From Desulfuromonadales bacterium (GTDB lineage: Bacteria; Desulfobacterota; Desulfuromonadia; Desulfuromonadales; BM103), in contig JAMONP010000061.1 of the NCBI GenBank assembly GCA_027065695.1, positions 1 to 64,000 on the forward strand: a stretch of DNA of 64,000 bases. Direction: 5' to 3'. This document shows, piece by piece, positions 8,213 through 53,581 of the stretch (positions within the stretch are counted from its first letter, which is position 1; each line of letters begins with the position of its first letter). The position numbers and the translations under genes are program-made. Below the pieces are notes generated by a model. That model searched no databases and was not told the origin of the DNA. It worked only from the letters and a program-made list of their open reading frames with translations.

Positions 8213-8375
8213 AGGAGCTTGTCCGACAATAAGGGTCGCAGCGAAAACCCAGAAGTTTGAGAACAGATTTTGACTCGTTTGAGAGTAATAGCCCTAGCTA
8301 TTGGTCGAAAAGGAGCTGAAATATGGGCCAAACAACTGGGTTTGCAGCCGATCATGGATTGTCGGACAAGCTCCT
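8213..8375. repeat. Palindromic element, copy 1
   Basis: A 163-bp element between the second TPM gene and the M23 peptidase gene. Its ends are a perfect 18-bp inverted repeat (AGGAGCTTGTCCGACAAT and complement). The whole unit is an imperfect palindrome: the left arm aligns to the reverse complement of the right arm with shared blocks such as AAACCCAG and GTTTG, and a small hairpin (AATAGC/GCTATT, 8287-8302) lies exactly at the centre. Five related copies occur in this window. Flanking TA on each side hints at a CTAG-like target. No transposase is encoded. Confidence 0.9.
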
Positions 8376-8433
8376 AAGTAGACAATCCTTTATGTTTACT
8401 GAGATGTTTTGAGTTCATATAGGAGTTTACGAC

Positions 8434-13200: not shown

Positions 13201-13283
13201 TATTCAGTAACAAGGTCACATCTGGAACATCAAAAAACGGCTTTTTAAACAACAATTTATGGCTACCCGAGTCAACTTCGGCT

Positions 13284-13447
13284 AGGAGGCTGTCGGACTA
13301 TCCATGAGCCAGCTGCAAATCCAGCTGATTGGCCCATATTTCAGCTCCTTTTCGACCAATAGCTACGGCTATTACTCTCAAACGAGCTAAAATCTGGTCT
13401 CAAACTTCCGAATTTTTGCTTCGGCCCGTATAGTCCGACAGCCTCCT
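13284..13447. repeat. Palindromic element, copy 2
   Basis: 164-bp member of the palindromic family in the gap between the convergent dctM and eamA genes, opposite in orientation to copy 1. Its ends form a perfect inverted repeat of a different sequence from copy 1 (AGGAGGCTGTCGGACTAT on the left, exact complement on the right). The central AATAGC...GCTATT hairpin is kept. It sits 6 bp from the eamA stop codon and is flanked by CT/AG, giving CTAGGAGG...CCTCCTAG. Confidence 0.9.
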
Positions 13448-14548: not shown

Positions 14549-16210
14549 ATGCCCATTAAACCTGCGATGTCCAGAGTTAACTCAGATGATTTTTCCCGTC
14601 TGTCGCCTGCTGATCAACTTGATGTTCTGCGCTGTCAGGAGTCCCGGCAGAAGATCAGCTTGCTTATTGATGCCCCGAACGGTGCCGAACTCATGGCCCG
14701 GTTGTCGGCGCAGGAAGTTTATCTGCTTGCCATAGAGCAAGGACCTGAACATCTGCCGGAACTTCTGAGTCTGGCTACTCCTGAGCAGTGGAGCGGGTTC
14801 ATTGATCTTGATTGCTGGAATGGCGACCAATTTGCTTCCGCCAGGACGCATCGCTGGCTCATCGCTCTCCTGCAGGGAGAAGAAGAAGCGGTCTTTACTG
14901 CGCTCATAGAGATGAACTTCGAGCAGTTGATCCTGATCTTCAAGTCCGAAATGGAGATTCTGTCGGGGCCGGAGGCGGATGAGAACGATGACGCCCGTAT
15001 AGACGCAATCAAACGTGATGGTGGTTACGAGATTTCCTATCACAGTGAAAACGGTGCCAAGCTGTTTGGTAGACTCCTTGACGTTCTTCAAAGCTATAAA
15101 CCGGAATTTTTCGTCTACCTCCTGGAAGCTGTTCGGGCCGAAACCATGGGGATGATCGAGGAAAGCGTTTATCAACAACGCACCGGGCGCTTGCAGGATA
15201 TTGGTATCCCGGACTCTTTTTCTGCTCGTAAGGTTTACTCATGGATCGATCCGGAAGAGTATCGTCAAGAGCGCCCGCTTAAAATTGCTCCCGGCTCTTG
15301 CGGAGGTAGTGCACCCGGCTTTACTCTAACGCTGGTTCGACCAAAAGGGCTGCTGGCTGAGGTTTTGGCTGAGGGTCTGGATGAAAATCTGGCCTGGGAG
15401 ATGGCCAACGTGGTCAACAAGACGATGATGGCTGATCGCATCGACATGGGGAATCTCGAGCAAGTCGGTGGTGTGATCAGCAAGGTAGATTCTTATCTCA
15501 ATCTGGCGCTTGAATGGCTGGCCGGTGATGACGTTGCTGTCGCCCGGCAGTCACTTAACGATTGCTACGCTGAGGAGTTGTTTCGCCTCGGTTACAGCTT
15601 GACCCTGAGATTGCAGCGTCGGGCTGCTGTGGTCGGCAAGTCAACGGTTGCACCCTATCTCGACGCCAACGCTCAGGCATGTGTTGCGGCTTTGAACCAG
15701 AACCCACCACATTATTTCGAAGGCGTTGGCGAGTCAACTCGGGGCGGGACTCGACTCTTTGCGTGCCTCGCCGAAATCCATGCGGTTGAGCAATGGCTCG
15801 AGAGAATTGAGCTTCAGCAGCAACTTTTCGAAGAGGTGTTGCAATTCGTTCTGCCGGAGCCTGCAGAGCTTGATCTCAGCGGCTGTCAGCCGGATAGTGC
15901 GGATGAGGTCACTCTGGTGGAATTTTTTCTGACTTCTCTGGCCAACAAACTGCTGGGGCGGGATTTTCAACCTCTGCCAATTGCTGAGGAGGAGCTTGCC
16001 GGTCTGCATGGTATGGTCTCTCAGTCGGGTGAGATACACCCTCAACTCCGTGAAGAGACGCTTAAGTGGCTCGATGCACTCCTGCCGGACGGCGGCGTCT
16101 TTGCCGGTTATTGTCTGGATATCTGGGAAGAAGAGTTCTGTTCGGTTGGTTTCGAGGATATTGATCCACGCTTTGTCGGTGGACTGATCATCCGCCTGGC
16201 GGATTATTAA
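14549..16210 (+). CDS. DUF6178-type protein of unknown function
   Basis: A 553-residue soluble protein, no signal peptide or membrane helix. It matches my memory of the DUF6178 family found mainly in Desulfuromonadales and related deltaproteobacteria, with a start like FSRLSPADQLDVLRCQESRQKISLLIDAP and a long alpha-helical body rich in Leu and Glu. No catalytic motif is recognisable. The ATG at 14549 has GGAG seven bases upstream; an upstream GTG at 14534 is less likely. Its stop codon overlaps that of the convergent radical SAM gene by 4 bp. Function unknown. Confidence 0.75.
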   Translation: MPIKPAMSRVNSDDFSRLSPADQLDVLRCQESRQKISLLIDAPNGAELMARLSAQEVYLLAIEQGPEHLPELLSLATPEQWSGFIDLDCWNGDQFASARTHRWLIALLQGEEEAVFTALIEMNFEQLILIFKSEMEILSGPEADENDDARIDAIKRDGGYEISYHSENGAKLFGRLLDVLQSYKPEFFVYLLEAVRAETMGMIEESVYQQRTGRLQDIGIPDSFSARKVYSWIDPEEYRQERPLKIAPGSCGGSAPGFTLTLVRPKGLLAEVLAEGLDENLAWEMANVVNKTMMADRIDMGNLEQVGGVISKVDSYLNLALEWLAGDDVAVARQSLNDCYAEELFRLGYSLTLRLQRRAAVVGKSTVAPYLDANAQACVAALNQNPPHYFEGVGESTRGGTRLFACLAEIHAVEQWLERIELQQQLFEEVLQFVLPEPAELDLSGCQPDSADEVTLVEFFLTSLANKLLGRDFQPLPIAEEELAGLHGMVSQSGEIHPQLREETLKWLDALLPDGGVFAGYCLDIWEEEFCSVGFEDIDPRFVGGLIIRLADY

Positions 16211-17913
16211 TCTTCACCGATAAAATAATCTTCCACAACTCTCATTTTCTGCCCAGTTGCCGTGAGGTAACAGAAGAGGTAGACAGTCCTTTGTGTTGAG
16301 CTGTGCAGGGTTGTGAAAACGGTCGCAAAGTACTGCAACTTGATCCCATGTCCCTTGATCTCCTCGGTTTTGCTCTGAACAGCCTTTTGCACCCATTCTT
16401 GCTCAACTGAATCGAGCTCCGTATCGAAAAAGTCCGGGATGCGATTGATGACTATGCGTTCGCAGCGGGCATAATCGTAGGCAAGGCTCTCCAGCAGTTT
16501 TCTGTTTGATGAAGCGTTTTCACGCTCTTGAACAATGTTGATGATGTTCTGGAAGAGCGCCTGGCGGTTCATCGGGAAACGGAACAGGCCGCGTCTTCGC
16601 CATTCTCCGGCAAGCCATGCAAGCCCCTTTGCAAAAGAGCCGGTGGTCTTGCTTAATTCAGTAAGAAAACTTTGGAAGTTGCCACTATTGTATGTCAGGT
16701 CGATCAGTCGACTGATCTCCTGCAATCGCTGTATTTCGTCAAAGGAAAGTTCCTGGCTGGTCAGGATTGTATAGGGAGGATTTGGATCATAACGAAGTTG
16801 TCTTTCTGCCGCTTGATCGCGTAGTGGTGAACCCTTGAGCAGCTTGACAGGTTCAATCTGCAGGTGGTGGGGGAAGAGGGCTATCAATCGGTCAATTGAT
16901 TCGAGGAAGCTGTCAAAACTATCACCAGGCAAGCCAGCAACCAGATCTAGGTGCAGATGAATGTGACTGCTTTTACGAAGCCGTTGTATGTTCTTCTCGA
17001 GCTTTGCCAGGTTGACATTGCGGTCGATGGATTCGAGGGTGCTCTTCGATGTGGATTGTACACCGATTTCAAATTGGAAAGTGTCTTGCGGCACCCTGGT
17101 TAGCAGTTCCATGGTTGGCTCATCAAGGAGATGTCCGGCGATTTCAAAATGAAAATGAGTCGATTGGTTGTGCTCAAGAATGAAAAGGAAAATCGCCCTG
17201 GTCCGTTCAGCATTGTAGTTGAAGGTGCGATCGACCAGTTTGACCTTGGGGACCCTGTTCTCCATCAGGTAGAGCAGATCACTGTAGATACGTTCCATGG
17301 AATAGGAGCGCACATGGTTGTCGCGGGCACTGAGGCAAAAGCTACAGTGGAATGGACAGCCTCTGCTGGTTTCGTAGTAGACAAAACCACGGTCAAGATC
17401 CGTCAGGCCCATCCGTAATGGTGAAGGAACCTGATCCAGGTTGACAAGGGGATGGCTGTCCGGCCCGCTGATGAGCTTATCACCTTTACGTAACAGCACA
17501 CGTGGGATGATGTCTGGTTGTTGCCCCTGCTGCCAGGTCATCAACAGGGTGCGTAGAGGTTCTTCTCCTTCTCCCTGAATAAGCGCGGTAAGACCGGGGT
17601 GGTGATCGAAGAGTTCCGTGCTGTCAAAAGAAACCTCAGGTCCACCCAAGATTATGCGTAATTGCGGACGGGCAACCGCCAGAGCGTCTAGCAAATCCAG
17701 AGTCGTACATCGATTCCAGATATAGACTGAAAAGGCAATGACATCCGGATCTTCACCCAGCAGCATAGCCAGAATCGATTCGCGTGGTTCATGTACGGTG
17801 AACTCGCGGATCAGCACCTCACCGCAATGGTTGTCGCAGTAGGCGGCAAGACAAGGCAGGGCCAGGCTGTTGTGGATAAATTTGCTATGCAGTGTGGCAA
17901 GTGTGGTGCGCAT
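16207..17913 (-). CDS. B12-binding domain radical SAM protein (DUF4080-like)
   Basis: 568 residues in three parts: an N-terminal cobalamin-binding-like Rossmann domain (about 1-125; DVIAFSVYIWNRCTTLDLL and IILGGPEVSFD), a radical SAM barrel with the CxxxCxxC cluster motif CPFHCSFC at C186, C190 and C193, and a C-terminal region (about 390-568) that resembles DUF4080. The GGPE and GEGEEPL motifs are typical of BchE-like class B enzymes. The canonical DxHxxG B12 ligand is absent, as in DUF4080 members. Substrate unknown. It is convergent with the DUF6178 gene and follows the selenoprotein gene on the same strand after 89 bp, so they may be co-transcribed. Confidence 0.85.
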   Translation of the reverse strand: MRTTLATLHSKFIHNSLALPCLAAYCDNHCGEVLIREFTVHEPRESILAMLLGEDPDVIAFSVYIWNRCTTLDLLDALAVARPQLRIILGGPEVSFDSTELFDHHPGLTALIQGEGEEPLRTLLMTWQQGQQPDIIPRVLLRKGDKLISGPDSHPLVNLDQVPSPLRMGLTDLDRGFVYYETSRGCPFHCSFCLSARDNHVRSYSMERIYSDLLYLMENRVPKVKLVDRTFNYNAERTRAIFLFILEHNQSTHFHFEIAGHLLDEPTMELLTRVPQDTFQFEIGVQSTSKSTLESIDRNVNLAKLEKNIQRLRKSSHIHLHLDLVAGLPGDSFDSFLESIDRLIALFPHHLQIEPVKLLKGSPLRDQAAERQLRYDPNPPYTILTSQELSFDEIQRLQEISRLIDLTYNSGNFQSFLTELSKTTGSFAKGLAWLAGEWRRRGLFRFPMNRQALFQNIINIVQERENASSNRKLLESLAYDYARCERIVINRIPDFFDTELDSVEQEWVQKAVQSKTEEIKGHGIKLQYFATVFTTLHSSTQRTVYLFCYLTATGQKMRVVEDYFIGED

Positions 17914-18002: not shown

Positions 18003-18839
18003 TTAGCTCCTCGGTTCAAAGGGTCCCGGATCCTCGTAGGTACTATAGTCGTAGCGCCGCCACTTGAATGGCAGGTCGATGATTTCGCCCGGGGTGGTTA
18101 TCGTGTAAAGGGCCTTAAAGGCTTCCAGTACAACTGTGCGTTGTTGTCTCATATTTCCCGGTTCGCCGAGCGGGTGACCGAAAGGCCATTTCAGGTGAAC
18201 GCTGCGTGGCGGCTGTACCTTCTCCGTGTACTCACGCACGATTGTTACTCCCACGGTAGCGATTCCAGCTTTTTCGATCTCTCTTTGTATCAGTCCCACG
18301 GACTGATTGCAGATGCCTCAAGCCGGGGTGAGCAGGACGACGTCAACCTGGTCCTGCCTGAGTTTTTCCACGACTTGTTTTGCTGCTTGTCCAATCAGGG
18401 TGGCAATATGCCGGCCGTCGATATGGCCCATGAATGAGTAGTGGGTATCGGCCAGTTGGCCAATCACTCCTTCTTGCTGCAATTCCATGATTCTGTCGAG
18501 TGGGAATATAATATTGAGATCTTTTTCTGCATCACTGTGATCATAGTAGTCGTGTGTAATCTTGTAGCCGTTGGTGATGGTTGCACCATCTATAGTCCGG
18601 AAGGTCGGATCACCGTCACTGTCCTGCATATCGAAGGGTTCCTGTGCGGTGTGGTGGACACCAGAGGTGGTGACCAGTGCCAGCTTGCATTCGCTTAACG
18701 GCTTTTGTGGTGGTGCCCAGGGCACGGCCTCCCCCGATTCCCATGGCTCGTAAGCGGAGATAAAGCGTTGAGCAAGGCTCGGATAGCGGGTGATAACTTT
18801 GGCAATTAAGCGGTTCTTAAATCGGCTGGTTAACGACAT
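18003..18839 (-). CDS. GrdB/PrdB-family selenoprotein with in-frame UGA (Sec)
   Basis: A 278-residue protein if the TGA at 18318-18320 is read as selenocysteine (U174). A stop there would cut the protein in the middle, yet the same frame continues for 104 codons after it with clear family sequence. The N-terminal half has the glycine/sarcosine/betaine/D-proline reductase signature LVTTSGVHHTAQEPFD...GDPTFR; the UGA falls in LLTPA-U-GICNQSVG, aligning with the U-x-x-C redox centre of PrdB-type proteins, with C177 as partner. A perfect hairpin follows the UGA. No GrdA or GrdE-like partner is in the window, so the reaction is unknown; a redox or reductase role is inferred. The downstream same-strand neighbour is a B12 radical SAM protein. 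Confidence 0.9.
18289..18320 (-). promoter_or_regulatory. Bacterial SECIS-like hairpin after the UGA
   Basis: On the coding (minus) strand the UGA (18320-18318) is followed by 10 bases and then a perfect 8-bp stem, AUCAGUCC/GGACUGAU, with a GUG loop (18307-18289). Position and compactness match bacterial SECIS elements, which lie within the coding region just downstream of the UGA and bind SelB through a GU in the loop. Recognition by SelB is inferred, not shown. Confidence 0.75.
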
Positions 18840-18892
18840 GGCATTCTCCTGTGATATTGGATAGCTGTAGCTGTTCAGCTTTATAAAATACG

Positions 18893-18965
18893 GTCATTCC
18901 CGAGGGTGTAATCGGGCATCCAGCTTTTAAATCATGGATCCCCGATAAAATCATTCGGGGATGAC
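18893..18965. repeat. REP-like imperfect palindrome
   Basis: A 73-bp imperfect inverted repeat: GTCATTCCCGAG on the left against GTCATCCCCGAA read from the right, with an inner ATCGGG/CCCGAT pair and a TGGAT core. It resembles the GTCAT-CCCG intergenic repeats common in proteobacteria and is unrelated to the 163-bp family. It lies upstream of the selenoprotein gene and downstream of the rhodanese gene. Confidence 0.7.
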
Positions 18966-19044
18966 AGAATCTTTGGTAAATAAGTGAGATTGTACTGAAT
19001 AGCGAATAACTCAGTATAGTCATTTTTAGTGATAGATACTAGTA

Positions 19045-19103: not shown

Positions 19104-20030
19104 TCAGTTACGCAGCGAAGCAATCTCTTCGTGTTGCGTAGCCTCTGCATTTTCAATAATCGGTAAACTCGGATTGTTGGCCCATTCTATCCAGGAGCCG
19201 TCGTAGTTTTTTACCTGTTTGTAACCTAATCCTTGCAGTACTAAAGTGGCGTAGGAGGAGCGGATACCGGTCTGGCAATGGGCTATGATCTCCTGGTCGG
19301 GCGTAATACCATAACTGATGAGCAAGGCACGGATTTCTGCTTCACTCTTTAACACTTTGACACCATCAACCTCCTGTTGCAGTTCTGTCCAGTTAAGATG
19401 GGTCGCACCGGGGATATGTCCACCGCGATCAGCGCGAACTTTGCTGCCATCATATTCTTCAGTGGTGCGGGTGTCCCAGATAACGACAGCAGGATTACCA
19501 AGTTGGGTCAGTACGTAGTCTGCTTCGGCGCGTGCTTTGCCGGGAACAGAGACACGATAGTTGCTTGGCACTGCTGCTGTTGTCGGAAATAACGATGTTG
19601 GGCGATCCTCCTGAGCCCATTTCTCGTAGCCGCCATCAAGAACCAGTGTCTTGTCGTGGCCGTGGTAGCGTAGAGTCCAGGCCAGGCGTGCGGCATAAGG
19701 ATTATCGTCTTCAGCGTAGGTAATGACGGTGGTTTCAGGGGTGATGCCAAACTTTTCCATCAAGGCCTCAAAGTCGGTGGTGGTTGGGACCAGGCTTTTG
19801 ACGCCATTGCGTTTGTCGAGAAATTCACTGCGTGGCAGATGATAAGCTCCCTTAATATGGCCCATCAGGAAGATCGGGGTTTGACGTGCGTCGAGTATCA
19901 CAACTTGCGAGCGATTCTCTGCGACCCACTCTGTTTGTACAAAGAAATCTCCCAAGGCGGCACTTGCCAGTGTTGGTAGCCCGGCTAGAAGCAAAAGGGT
20001 GAGCATAGTGAACTTTTTGAATGACTGCAT
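19104..20030 (-). CDS. Periplasmic two-domain rhodanese (sulfurtransferase)
   Basis: A 308-residue sulfurtransferase with an N-terminal signal peptide (about 1-23, ending LASA). Two rhodanese modules follow. The first (about 30-150) has the CH2A-like VVILDARQTPIFLMGHIKGA but a tyrosine-containing loop (YAEDDNPYAARLA) where the catalytic cysteine would be, so it is inactive. The second (about 180-295) has the active loop HCQTGIRSS with the catalytic Cys. This layout matches thiosulfate or 3-mercaptopyruvate sulfurtransferases. The ATG at 20030 has GGAG nearby; a longer upstream frame would bury the signal peptide. Periplasmic location and the selenium/sulfur neighbourhood suggest sulfane-sulfur handling. 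Confidence 0.88.
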   Translation of the reverse strand: MQSFKKFTMLTLLLLAGLPTLASAALGDFFVQTEWVAENRSQVVILDARQTPIFLMGHIKGAYHLPRSEFLDKRNGVKSLVPTTTDFEALMEKFGITPETTVITYAEDDNPYAARLAWTLRYHGHDKTLVLDGGYEKWAQEDRPTSLFPTTAAVPSNYRVSVPGKARAEADYVLTQLGNPAVVIWDTRTTEEYDGSKVRADRGGHIPGATHLNWTELQQEVDGVKVLKSEAEIRALLISYGITPDQEIIAHCQTGIRSSYATLVLQGLGYKQVKNYDGSWIEWANNPSLPIIENAEATQHEEIASLRN

Positions 20031-20279
20031 GGTTTTCTCCTGTAGTTGAAAGCTTGTTGACCATATAGCTAAGGAATAATATAAGTAAACAACAGTGTCA
20101 AGATATTTATGGTAAAAATAAAATACTGTAAGTAGTAGTAGAAAGCGGGATGGGTTGAAATACATTAAATCCAGGGTTTTAATAATAAGTAGAAATTGTT
20201 TCCAAACCTCATCCTGTGATAATCTTGTATAGGCTGACTTCTAAAATGTAACAGAAGCTTTAATGCAGAGGTGCAACAC

Positions 20280-24280: not shown

Positions 24281-24451
24281 TTCTTTTTCAAAAGCCCTTC
24301 CTGGGGCAATTACTCGCTATGGTTTGTTGAATCAGACCGTCTCTTGTCACAAAATCCACATATAAGAATGTAAGAATAATCCCTTGTGCTATGCGATTTG
24401 ATTTGTAAATTTTAATAGACTTGCGTTAGTATTAAATTGTGGAGTGGAGTT

Positions 24452-25576
24452 GTGACCGTGGATTTCTCAGTGTGGGTCGTTATGGTAGCATTGTCGCTCA
24501 TCGGTTTAGCTGCCGGTTTCCTGATGCACCGCTCCGATTTTTGCATGGCCAGTGCATTTCGAGATGTCTTTCTGTTCAAGAGCTACAGACTCCTCCGTGC
24601 TCTTGTTCTGCTGATCACCCTGAGCGCGCTTTTGTTCGAACTCTGTCGTCTCACGGGTATTCTGCCGGCTTATCCCTTTCCGTGGTTTTCTCCGCCGGTC
24701 GGGGTTAACTTCTTTGGCGGTATGGTGTTCGGTCTCGGTATGGTGTTGGCTGGCGGTTGTGTTGTTGGAGTCCTTTACAAGATGGGTGGCGGCAGCCTGA
24801 TGGCACTTGTCGCCTTCGTTGGATTGTTGGCCGGGAGTGCACTATACGCAGAGTTCCATCCTTGGTGGATGGCGCTGGCAAAGCAGACGAGCTTTGCCAC
24901 AAAGGCCGTCACCTTGCCACAATGGATCGGTGTCTCACCAATTGCCCCGATCATTGTGCTCGTAGCTGTTGGTGGTTTCTTTTGTTGGCGTTGGTTACGA
25001 GCTGGAGACTGGATCGACACGAATGAAGCGGAAGGGTTCATCCCCTTGTGGCTTACGGTGGTTGGATTAGCCGTACTTGGTGTGTTGGTGGTTTTTCTGT
25101 GCGGCGTTCCCATGGGTGTGACGACGTCTTATGCCAAGGGTGCTGCTTTAGTAGAATCCTGGCTCATACCTGGTCATCTTGCCACCTTGCCATATTTTAC
25201 GGCAATATCGAGTTACAATGCACTACCGATTGACGGAGTGATGCGTAGCGGTGGTGCCGGGGCAACTTTCGATATTGTGGCAATAGTTCAGCTTCCGCTG
25301 ATTCTCGGTATTATTGGCGGCTCCTGGCTATCGGCACAATTGCTCGGTGAATTCCGGATTATCTGGAAACTTCCGATCAAGCAGGTTGCTATGGTTTTTA
25401 CGGGCGGTGTCATCATGGCTCTGGGGGCTCGCATGTCTTTTGGATGCAATGTCTGGCACCTATGGGGAGGATTGCCGTTATTGACCATGCAGAGCCTGTT
25501 GTTTGTCGCTGGGCTGTTCCCTGGAGCATGGTTTGGCGGAAAAGTTCTCCAGCAGGTTTTGGTTTCTGGAAAGTAG
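24452..25576 (+). CDS. yedE: YedE/YeeE family selenium/sulfur transporter
   Basis: 374-residue inner-membrane protein with about nine to ten hydrophobic helices. Conserved cysteines of the YeeE/YedE family stand in HRSDFCMASAFRD, VLAGGCVVGVLYKMGGG and MSFGCNVWHLWGG. YeeE homologues import thiosulfate; the YedE branch, next to yedF, is associated with selenium use. Here the adjacent YedF-like gene and the nearby selenoprotein gene favour selenium or selenite-derived compounds, an inference. Start is uncertain: GTG at 24452 or 24458 both lie after GGAGTGGAG. It is 15 bp upstream of yedF. Confidence 0.85.
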   Translation: MTVDFSVWVVMVALSLIGLAAGFLMHRSDFCMASAFRDVFLFKSYRLLRALVLLITLSALLFELCRLTGILPAYPFPWFSPPVGVNFFGGMVFGLGMVLAGGCVVGVLYKMGGGSLMALVAFVGLLAGSALYAEFHPWWMALAKQTSFATKAVTLPQWIGVSPIAPIIVLVAVGGFFCWRWLRAGDWIDTNEAEGFIPLWLTVVGLAVLGVLVVFLCGVPMGVTTSYAKGAALVESWLIPGHLATLPYFTAISSYNALPIDGVMRSGGAGATFDIVAIVQLPLILGIIGGSWLSAQLLGEFRIIWKLPIKQVAMVFTGGVIMALGARMSFGCNVWHLWGGLPLLTMQSLLFVAGLFPGAWFGGKVLQQVLVSGK

Positions 25577-25591
25577 TTAAAGAGGTTTTTT

Positions 25592-25849
25592 ATGAAAACT
25601 CTGGAAATGGATATCCGTGGCCAGGTTTGCCCCTCCAGCCTGCTACTGGTTCTACGTGAAATCAATCGGCATCATCAGGAGCTGATATCTGGTCAGCTGT
25701 GCATTGTGATTCTCACGGATAACCGCGCGGCGACCGGAACGGTTCCGGAGGCTGTTCGCAACATGGGCGTTGATGCTGTCGTTGAAAAGGTTGACAAATA
25801 TTATCGCATAACGACACAACAGCAGAATGTTAGAGGAAAACGGAACTAA
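25592..25849 (+). CDS. yedF: YedF/TusA-like sulfurtransferase
   Basis: 85-residue TusA-fold protein (DIRGQVCPSSLLLVLREIN with C13). The CPxP box common to the family is CPSS here. TusA proteins carry persulfide sulfur on this cysteine; YedF forms are linked to selenium metabolism. It lies 15 bp after yedE and its stop codon overlaps the start of the histidine kinase gene (TAATG), so the three genes are almost certainly one operon. The C-terminus is short, so the second YedF-specific domain is absent: it is TusA-sized. Confidence 0.85.
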   Translation: MKTLEMDIRGQVCPSSLLLVLREINRHHQELISGQLCIVILTDNRAATGTVPEAVRNMGVDAVVEKVDKYYRITTQQQNVRGKRN

Positions 25850-27255: not shown

Positions 27256-27270
27256 AAACGGACATCCCAA

Positions 27271-27432
27271 GCAGCCTGTCGGACTATCAATGAGCTGGCT
27301 GCAAATTCACCTGTTTGGCCCATATCTCAGCTCATTTTCGACCAATAGCTATGGCTATTAATCTCAAACGAGCTAAAATCTGGTCTTAAACATCCAAATT
27401 TTCGCATCAGCCCTGATAGCCCGACAGGCTGC
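27271..27432. repeat. Palindromic element, copy 3
   Basis: 162-bp member in the gap between the convergent kinase and srkA genes. Left end GCAGCCTGTCGGACTAT; the right end is complementary with one mismatch. The central AATAGC...GCTATT hairpin and interior blocks are conserved. Its last base overlaps the TAG stop codon of srkA (27432-27434), so insertion or conversion at CTAG appears to have occurred at the very end of that gene. Confidence 0.9.
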
Positions 27433-31544: not shown

Positions 31545-31987
31545 CTGTTACTCCATGATATGGTTTCATTACGATGATTAATTGTAACGTACAGTCGTCT
31601 GATTCATAGCCGTCGCTGAAAATAATAAGTTGGGGCTGGATGGTGACACGATTCCTCTTGTATTACCATTGTAATCCTAGGAGTCTGTCCGACAATAAGG
31701 GTCGAAGCGAAAACTCAGAAGTTTACGAACAGATTTTGGCTCGTTTGAGAGTAACAGCCATAGCTATTGATCAAAAAGGAGCTGAAATATGGGCCAAACA
31801 GCTAGGTTTGCAGCCAATCATGGATTGCCAGGACAGATTCCTGGCTTTGTTGTCAGTGTTTCTACTGTGTGGAATAAACATCTCCGGTTTTTCTTTTAAT
31901 GCGAGTTCTTAGCTGATAAAATTACCGAGGTGTTTATCTCTGCCGGAATGTTTATCTCTGCAAGGCTCGGGGGGGGCCATATAATCC
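31545..31987. other. Divergent intergenic region with repeat copy 4
   Basis: 443-bp region between the divergent M16 protease and hybrid kinase genes. It contains palindromic element copy 4 (31679-31842). The remainder has no convincing open frame. A 90-codon frame (31640-31912) simply reads through the repeat. A G-run of eight just before the kinase start acts as its ribosome-binding site. Confidence 0.6.
31679..31842. repeat. Palindromic element, copy 4
   Basis: 164-bp member in the same orientation as copy 1, with about the same interior. Left end AGGAGTCTGTCCGACAAT; right end read back AGGAATCTGTCCTGGCAAT, so this is the copy with the worst-matched ends. It lies between the divergent M16 protease and hybrid kinase genes and may influence either promoter. 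Confidence 0.88.
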
Positions 31988-41023: not shown

Positions 41024-41092
41024 GAGCTTGTCCGACAATATGGGCCAAACAGCTGGGGTTGCAGCCAAGCATGAATTGTCGGACAAGCTCCT
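41024..41092. repeat. Palindromic element, copy 5 (internal deletion)
   Basis: A 69-bp miniature in the divergent receptor/tonB promoter region. It has a perfect 16-bp inverted repeat (GAGCTTGTCCGACAAT and complement) and retains only part of one arm (ATGGGCCAAACAGCTGG...). Compared with copy 1, about 94 bp of one arm and the centre are missing. It lies 26 bp before the tonB start, so it may affect its expression. Confidence 0.88.
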
Positions 41093-41118
41093 AAATTAAA
41101 CTCTCTGGTGATTTAACG

Positions 41119-53418: not shown

Positions 53419-53581
53419 AGGAGTCTGTCCGACAATCCATGCTCGGCTGCAAACCCAGCTGTTTGGCCCATATTTCAGCTCCTTTTCTACCAATAGCTAT
53501 GGCTATTACTCTCAAACGAGCCAAAATCTGTTCTCAAACTTCTGGGTTTTCGCTTCGACCCTTATTGTCGGACAGGCTCCT
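53419..53581. repeat. Palindromic element, copy 6
   Basis: 163-bp member between the octahaem cytochrome and gspF, in the same orientation as copies 2 and 3. Left end AGGAGTCTGTCCGACAAT; right end reads back AGGAGCCTGTCCGACAAT, one difference (pairing as G-T). Central AATAGC...GCTATT hairpin kept. Followed 10 bp later by a conventional terminator. Confidence 0.9.

Follow-up and report, generated by a model that had tools for sequence, protein, structure and literature searches.

A probable stand-alone selenoprotein related to PrdB and GrdB, with an in-frame UGA, in a Desulfuromonadales genome

The stretch of DNA analysed here (hereafter the window: 64,000 nucleotides, positions 1 to 64,000 of contig JAMONP010000061.1 in the Desulfuromonadales assembly GCA_027065695.1) contains a reading frame with a TGA in its midst. 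Does this codon end the protein or is it read as selenocysteine (Sec), and, if the latter, what kind of protein results? The frame starts at an ATG preceded by an AGGAG with a spacer of six bases, and after the TGA it stays open up to a TAA (Table 1). Translated with U at the TGA, the product has 278 amino acids and U174 lies within LLTPA-U-G-I-C-NQSVG. Residues 1-173 alone match PF07355 (61.9 bits) and TIGR04483 (108 bits, model positions 20-145) and the C-terminal 104 amino acids alone match positions 149-235 of the TIGR04483 model (41.3 bits, E = 1.1e-10); scored separately, the two halves thus occupy consecutive model positions of one family. A preliminary description of the locus had reported two adjoining in-frame pieces of one family separated by a TGA in a U-G-I-C motif, which the sequence confirms exactly, and had named a lack of similarity of the downstream half to the family as an argument against read-through; this half is recognized on its own. 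UGA174 is very probably read as selenocysteine in this gene, giving the whole protein, and standard annotation would split the gene in two, as had been anticipated. The full explanation that we favor, with a probability of roughly 0.87, is a stand-alone Sec protein in which UGA174 is decoded with the help of a hairpin and U174 and C177 form a redox pair, and which is unlikely to be one of the known reductases.

Table 1. Features of the locus and of its surroundings, in positions of the window
Feature	Position	Strand	Remark
Coding region of the 278-amino-acid selenoprotein	18003..18839	-	ATG at 18839; UGA174 taken as Sec; TAA stop at 18005-18003
In-frame TGA, codon 174, U of U-G-I-C	18318..18320	-	Very probably read as selenocysteine
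SECIS-type hairpin, 8-bp stem, GUG loop	18289..18307	-	Loop begins after 18 nt from the UGA
Tandem rhodanese ORF, co-directional upstream	19104..20165	-	Its end lies 264 bases upstream of the selenoprotein gene, with which it may be functionally linked
B12-binding radical SAM protein (DUF4080), co-directional downstream	16207..17913	-	89 bases after the selenoprotein gene
Dispersed repeat, about 80 bases	8293-8376, 13283-13365, 27270-27351, 31761-31842, 41039-41093, 53419-53499		78-88% identical to a copy on another contig

The codon at the Sec site was compared among homologues at several taxonomic depths. In the class, homologues were matched in 56 of 277 genomes and every match extending across residue 174 contains an in-frame TGA; the only stop-free row is a fragment that starts at position 183, and three rows have a second stop of another kind. 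The position of the TGA was checked in the 66 motif-bearing ORFs fetched, where it is the U codon of U-x-x-C. A search of named genomes with peptide patterns that omit residue 174, and consequently do not exclude Cys forms, brought up 363 relatives; the best 80 of them were examined and have TGA (79) or GGA (one), and none has Cys. The cultured Geothermobacter hydrogeniphilus and Pelovirga terrestris are among the relatives with TGA. In the phylum, the profile was matched by 101 of the 394 sampled genomes (full-length GrdB counted in, at most six candidates scored per genome), and the sole full-length row without a stop is the GGA relative. A gene that is normally truncated by annotation is thus intact and widespread. 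The preliminary description had held that a stop conserved in the homologues would speak against read-through; the homologues do keep the codon, as TGA. It had also raised the possibility that Cys replaces U174 in some homologues, which is the case in two distant ones, with CPVC in Roseomonas and CPIC in Haematobacter; the 80 best relatives include no Cys form. That close relatives keep Sec almost without exception, and do not switch to Cys, makes this family a good case for studying why Sec is needed.

Several variants were seen at this site. In the relative GWB2_55_19 (L176 6001-6783, L209), a GGA (Gly) stands where the others have UGA, and both hairpin and frame are intact; this would represent either a base error or a decayed copy. 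A distant GrdB-like frame in genome G307 (L282, 59.5 bits) spans the site and has Thr at the Sec position. On a Thermodesulfovibrionia contig, a second, divergent copy with U-V-I-C (L153 6723-7574) lies beside the U-G-I-C copy. Finally, some U-P-N-C forms of about 410-460 amino acids (L105, L107, L108) have about 150 additional C-terminal residues; a fused domain was sought in two of them (L107, L108), in which Pfam recovered the GrdB part alone and NCBIfam the GrdB/PrdB models together with two chance-level matches below the cut-off.

The second piece of evidence is the hairpin that follows the UGA. As previously described, a perfect 8-bp stem starts 10 bases past the TGA and closes a GUG loop (AUCAGUCC-GUG-GGACUGAU). 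A fold energy of -14 kcal/mol (z = -2.27) is obtained for the UGA with the 45 bases after it, but since 8 of 200 shuffles fold as well, the fold energy alone is modest evidence; the SECIS case is decided by conservation, namely by the TGA present in every class match across residue 174 and by the covariation of the stem. The first stem alignment comprised 51 distinct 54-base sequences from the 66 motif rows, leaving out the 7 of 73 ORF matches that are devoid of the motif (three fragments and four full-length GrdB). In these 51 sequences, 96.3% of the pair cells are formed, any slid register of the stem drops to 53.4% paired or less, and double-change cells number 41 against 8.6 in shuffles, with none of 500 shuffles as high. 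RNAalifold recovers seven of the eight stem pairs unprompted. Four of the eight pairs are changed on both sides, a number that is reached by 85 of 500 shuffles and hence not beyond them, whereas the other four measures are. A stricter control permuted codons among the sequences sharing the amino acid in that column (500 permutations) in a set enlarged with 77 sequences from the named relatives to 99 distinct ones: 96.8% of the cells are paired, against a mean of 90.8% and a maximum of 91.9% in the permutations, and all 99 sequences form pair 18/28, compared with at most 81 in any permutation, the relatedness of the sequences being left uncorrected in shuffles and permutations alike. Even the host and its closest relatives differ in which of the two main pair types they have. 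The hairpin covaries beyond the constraint of the protein code: the RNA pairs change together and the protein stays the same. The G in a small SECIS loop is a criterion named in PMC1088965; the locus has a hairpin after the UGA, with a G in its small loop and conserved as a structure, as in bacterial Sec-decoded genes. The Rfam search of the window at gathering scores matched only tRNAs. Taken with the TGA kept in relatives, the covarying stem supports the earlier proposals of Sec read-through and of a SECIS, and on this comparative evidence the locus appears to be a true selenocysteine gene.

The decoding machinery of the host is less straightforward. The preliminary description had suggested searching the genome for selA, selB, selC and selD. 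Of these, selC stands: the host assembly contains a tRNA-Sec (71.7 bits, cut-off 47), adjoined by YedF (TIGR03527, 201 bits, cut-off 110). The other three are absent from the assembly: selA has no match at E = 1e-10, and all 12 selB and three selD matches fall below the cut-offs, those read by eye resembling EF-Tu, CysN, IF-2, EF-G, TypA and LepA for the former and ThiL, HypE and PurM for the latter. With these genes absent from the assembly and tRNA-Sec and YedF found, Sec decoding by the host itself is putative. In the 22 family genomes including the host, selA and selB are over the cut-off in 20 and selD in 19; the three genes adjoin one another, and the full-length selD rows themselves contain an in-frame TGA. 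A second Sec codon was looked for in formate dehydrogenase and gave an uninformative result, with an in-frame TGA in none of 24 matches from 11 genomes of the genus. In the window, a YeeE/YedE-family membrane protein (24437-25849) scores 106 bits to the thiosulfate transporter TsuA and, against two selenium YedE models, 85 and 50 bits, all below the respective cut-offs, and is followed by a small protein that looks TusA-like by eye and has no NCBIfam match.

Several scenarios may explain these observations. One possibility is that the host lost selA-selB-selD, in which case the gene, the hairpin and the tRNA-Sec would be recent leftovers and the UGA would end a 173-amino-acid product, the gene encoding a true selenoprotein in the relatives. 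The three genes are indeed missing from an assembly that is 99.95% complete by markers and that holds short contigs: the lengths of 77 of its 108 contigs were read, 14 of them are under 5 kb and the shortest has 1620 bp, so a simple size cut-off does not explain the absence and a short-contig filter was rejected as its cause. Moreover, the cassette of the relative G013 is near an operon reading like type II secretion, and the host keeps this operon, the one flank of the G013 surroundings that it has, with other genes following gaplessly in place of the cassette. Nevertheless, the flanks of the cassette differ within the genus among G012, G013 and G015/G017, so that its absence from one host site says little; a synteny attempt with the surroundings in G015 gave only two short matches in the host. 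selA and selB are present in 20 of the 21 other family genomes, the single miss being a 59%-complete genome. Contig size was read for 15 relatives, in 6 of which the cassette is on a contig smaller than 9 kb, and a repeat of about 80 bases beside selD in G012 has six matches in the window (that at 41039-41093 is partial). Given the varied flanks, the small contigs and this repeat, a loss in assembly or binning is likelier than a true loss, and the absence of selA-selB-selD in the host is likelier an assembly gap than a gene loss. The contig sizes mostly follow each other as if their ranks in a larger assembly had been sorted as text (at least two do not); judged by eye, this order weakly suggests that the host assembly is a metagenome bin. 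Furthermore, the tRNA-Sec, YedF, the TGA and the perfect hairpin are all intact.

Selection on the two halves bears on the same question. Relative to the nearest relative (91% identical), dN/dS is 0.091 before the UGA and 0.066 after it, and relative to seven others it ranges from 0.015 to 0.087 before and from 0.047 to 0.148 after, with synonymous sites saturated in the distances to the farther relatives; these ratios point to purifying selection on the half after the UGA. In the host's own branch, the codon changes after the UGA are 5 synonymous and 5 non-synonymous, compared with 8 and 1 in its sister (Fisher p = 0.14), and those before it 11 and 4, compared with 10 and 5; a stricter rule leaves 5 synonymous and 4 non-synonymous changes after the UGA and 5 and 0 before. 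The share of non-synonymous changes after the UGA, 5 of 10 or 4 of 9, would suit a gene recently released from its function, yet the contrasts tested all fall short of significance (p = 0.14, 0.40 and 0.22); some relaxation of selection in this branch may nevertheless have occurred. All in all, a loss of decoding in the host seems unlikely to us. That the TGA would be a sequencing error, or the gene a broken pseudogene, accounts for the interrupted frame and is refuted by the comparative data: the same TGA occurs in tens of other assemblies, selection is purifying on both sides of it and the hairpin covaries, which leaves this explanation with practically no probability.

If UGA174 is decoded, the next question is which protein is made. 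The best curated match of the 278-amino-acid protein is the PrdB model TIGR04483 (169 bits, E = 1e-49), the subfamily cut-off of TIGR01918 is passed (79 over 65.45) and so is the gathering score of PF07355 (60 bits over 22). Together with an identity of about 30-37% to annotated PrdB, these scores could indicate that the protein carries out the usual reaction of PrdB (D-proline reductase) or of GrdB (glycine/betaine/sarcosine reductase). However, the equivalog cut-off of TIGR04483 is 300 bits, and the match to PF07355 covers only profile positions 210-345 of 347, which is not that of a full-length GrdB. The partner family PF09338 (PrdA/GrdE) is a further obstacle, as neither partner was found in the host genome at E = 1e-10. 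PF09338 occurs in 4 of the 277 class genomes, exactly the four that have full-length GrdB, which are also the weakest class matches to the host protein, and it is absent from all the other 52 homologue-bearing class genomes. The annotated PrdB of Terrisporobacter, Ligilactobacillus and Enterococcus are one small gene away from prdA and form, with that of Peptoclostridium, a clade of their own (99/99 support); the four have TGA in U-G-T-C. In Peptoclostridium acidaminophilum (L213 4016-4729), prdA was not among the neighbours of the annotated PrdB. In the tree, the host protein groups with Desulfobacterota and Nitrospirota forms (87/84 support), the deeper branching being uncertain and accompanied by a program warning about long branches. 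The UGSC family (NF041046, PF24696) did not match the host protein at E = 0.01, short of its curated cut-off, and matched two of five relatives weakly, with 18.7 of 125 bits at best. Since no PrdA/GrdE partner was found in these genomes, a known role in glycine or D-proline reduction is unlikely, and a PrdB or GrdB proper appears very improbable. The preliminary description had proposed a Sec-dependent reductase, related to GrdB and PrdB, without its usual partners in sight. The kinship and the missing partners are supported, the reductase activity is putative, and homology makes the host protein, in our reading, a relative of both; membership in PrdB or GrdB proper does not hold, as the partner, the score or the length fails, and on these tests the protein would not belong functionally to the D-proline or glycine reductases.

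The predicted structure does not point to a more specific function. The AlphaFold2 model (mean pLDDT 89.7, pTM 0.89; first 30 residues near 63) has an alpha/beta core in which residue 174 is in the loop after strand 167-171 and C177 starts helix 177-190, suggestive of a Rossmann-like alpha/beta domain. Foldseek returned no relative among solved structures at E = 0.001 or better, and VIA-align found none with Z of 8 or more among the 1000 top Foldseek chains; these searches saw the common Rossmann-like arrangement and no specific relative. A match to a cytochrome c555 fusion, obtained with the single sequence against solved structures (E = 1.8e-5), is unseen with a profile at E = 1 and was rejected as spurious. 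The residues invariant in 44 rows include H96, H101, H139, R81, Q66, D103 and D107; such His, Arg, Gln and Asp residues would fit a substrate pocket.

Neighbouring genes were clustered at 114 loci, corresponding to 101 distinct genes, and did not reveal an operon shared by the entire family. The commonest neighbour is a rhodanese, co-directional and upstream of 21 of the 93 distinct genes for which 1.7 kb or more of preceding sequence was available. It ends within about 380 bases of the estimated selenoprotein start in 20 of these 21, which suggests sulfane-sulfur chemistry in those relatives. It may therefore be that the rhodanese makes persulfides and that the Sec174/Cys177 pair reduces them, a proposal that we consider rather improbable: a co-directional rhodanese was not found near the other 72 genes (a divergent one would be missed), and, by eye, the host rhodanese looks exported and the selenoprotein does not. 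The true start of the host rhodanese ORF seems to lie nearer 20030, followed by a stretch resembling a signal peptide. The cluster of the downstream DUF4080 radical SAM protein is near the gene in 11 of the 114 loci, and this protein is at most a putative partner. Heavy-metal P-type ATPases, read by eye, are near 11 of the 101 distinct genes. The intergenic element at 18874-19000, 5' of the selenoprotein gene, is about 80% identical to a segment of another host contig (L055:631-756), and this copy also matches in the other orientation.

The redox chemistry of the U-x-x-C centre in GrdB and PrdB is the basis for the cycle that we propose. The product would be a stand-alone 278-amino-acid selenoprotein whose core is a homologue of PrdB and of the GrdB C-terminal part. 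The UGA, the covarying hairpin and the tRNA-Sec are present; tRNA-Sec would decode UGA174, with SelB on the hairpin. Most likely, the selenolate of Sec174 would then attack an S-S, S-X or electrophilic bond of the substrate, and Cys177 would resolve the adduct through a selenenyl-sulfide that thioredoxin-type reductants or external thiols could reduce again. By analogy, the function would be that of a stand-alone selenol/thiol redox protein. More broadly, the Sec clade of Desulfobacterota, Nitrospirota and their neighbours could be a separate stand-alone family that never has a pyruvoyl partner and acts on sulfur compounds, such as persulfides supplied by rhodanese, in bacteria without amino-acid fermentation. 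We find this broader suggestion, which concerns proteins like those entered in surveys as proline reductase, rather doubtful.

This kind of protein is already known, since surveys and reviews list Sec-containing PrdB, GrdB or proline reductase: a Sec-containing "proline reductase" is reported in Anaeromyxobacter and Geobacter uraniumreducens (PMC1794560), marine surveys give 42 "PrdB" sequences (PMC1088965) and, in 2008, 235 Sec and 110 Cys forms of PrdB, given as pfam07355 (PMC2398784), and GrdB and D-proline reductase appear as families in the recent reviews PMC9312934 and PMC13188914. The literature searched yielded no description of the stand-alone clade as such. Two points are new here: a partner test that speaks against the name "proline reductase" for this clade, and a hairpin test controlled for codons. 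The label is doubtful for the stand-alone relatives, so that Stickland-type metabolism may have been overcounted in inventories of organisms other than fermenters.

Compared with known systems, the sequences surveyed as "PrdB" or "proline reductase" (PMC1088965, PMC2398784, PMC1794560) share the U-x-x-C motif with the host protein; the partner test argues against their name for the host clade, to which the survey sequences may or may not belong. The Alphaproteobacterial proteins of Roseomonas and Haematobacter annotated as "glycine/sarcosine/betaine reductase selenoprotein B family protein" are homologues, with no grd or prd genes in the 4 kb read on either side, but they are distant in the tree and have the Cys motifs given above instead of Sec. 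GrdB (PF07355, TIGR01918) has U-x-x-C at the same position and its two cut-offs are passed by the host protein, which, however, corresponds only to the C-terminal part (278 amino acids against models of 431-435 positions) and comes without GrdE. PrdB (TIGR04483) likewise has Sec encoded by TGA in U-x-x-C and is homologous over most of the host protein, whereas the latter has U-G-I-C, scores below the equivalog cut-off, is not accompanied by a PF09338 partner in its genome and belongs to a separate clade.
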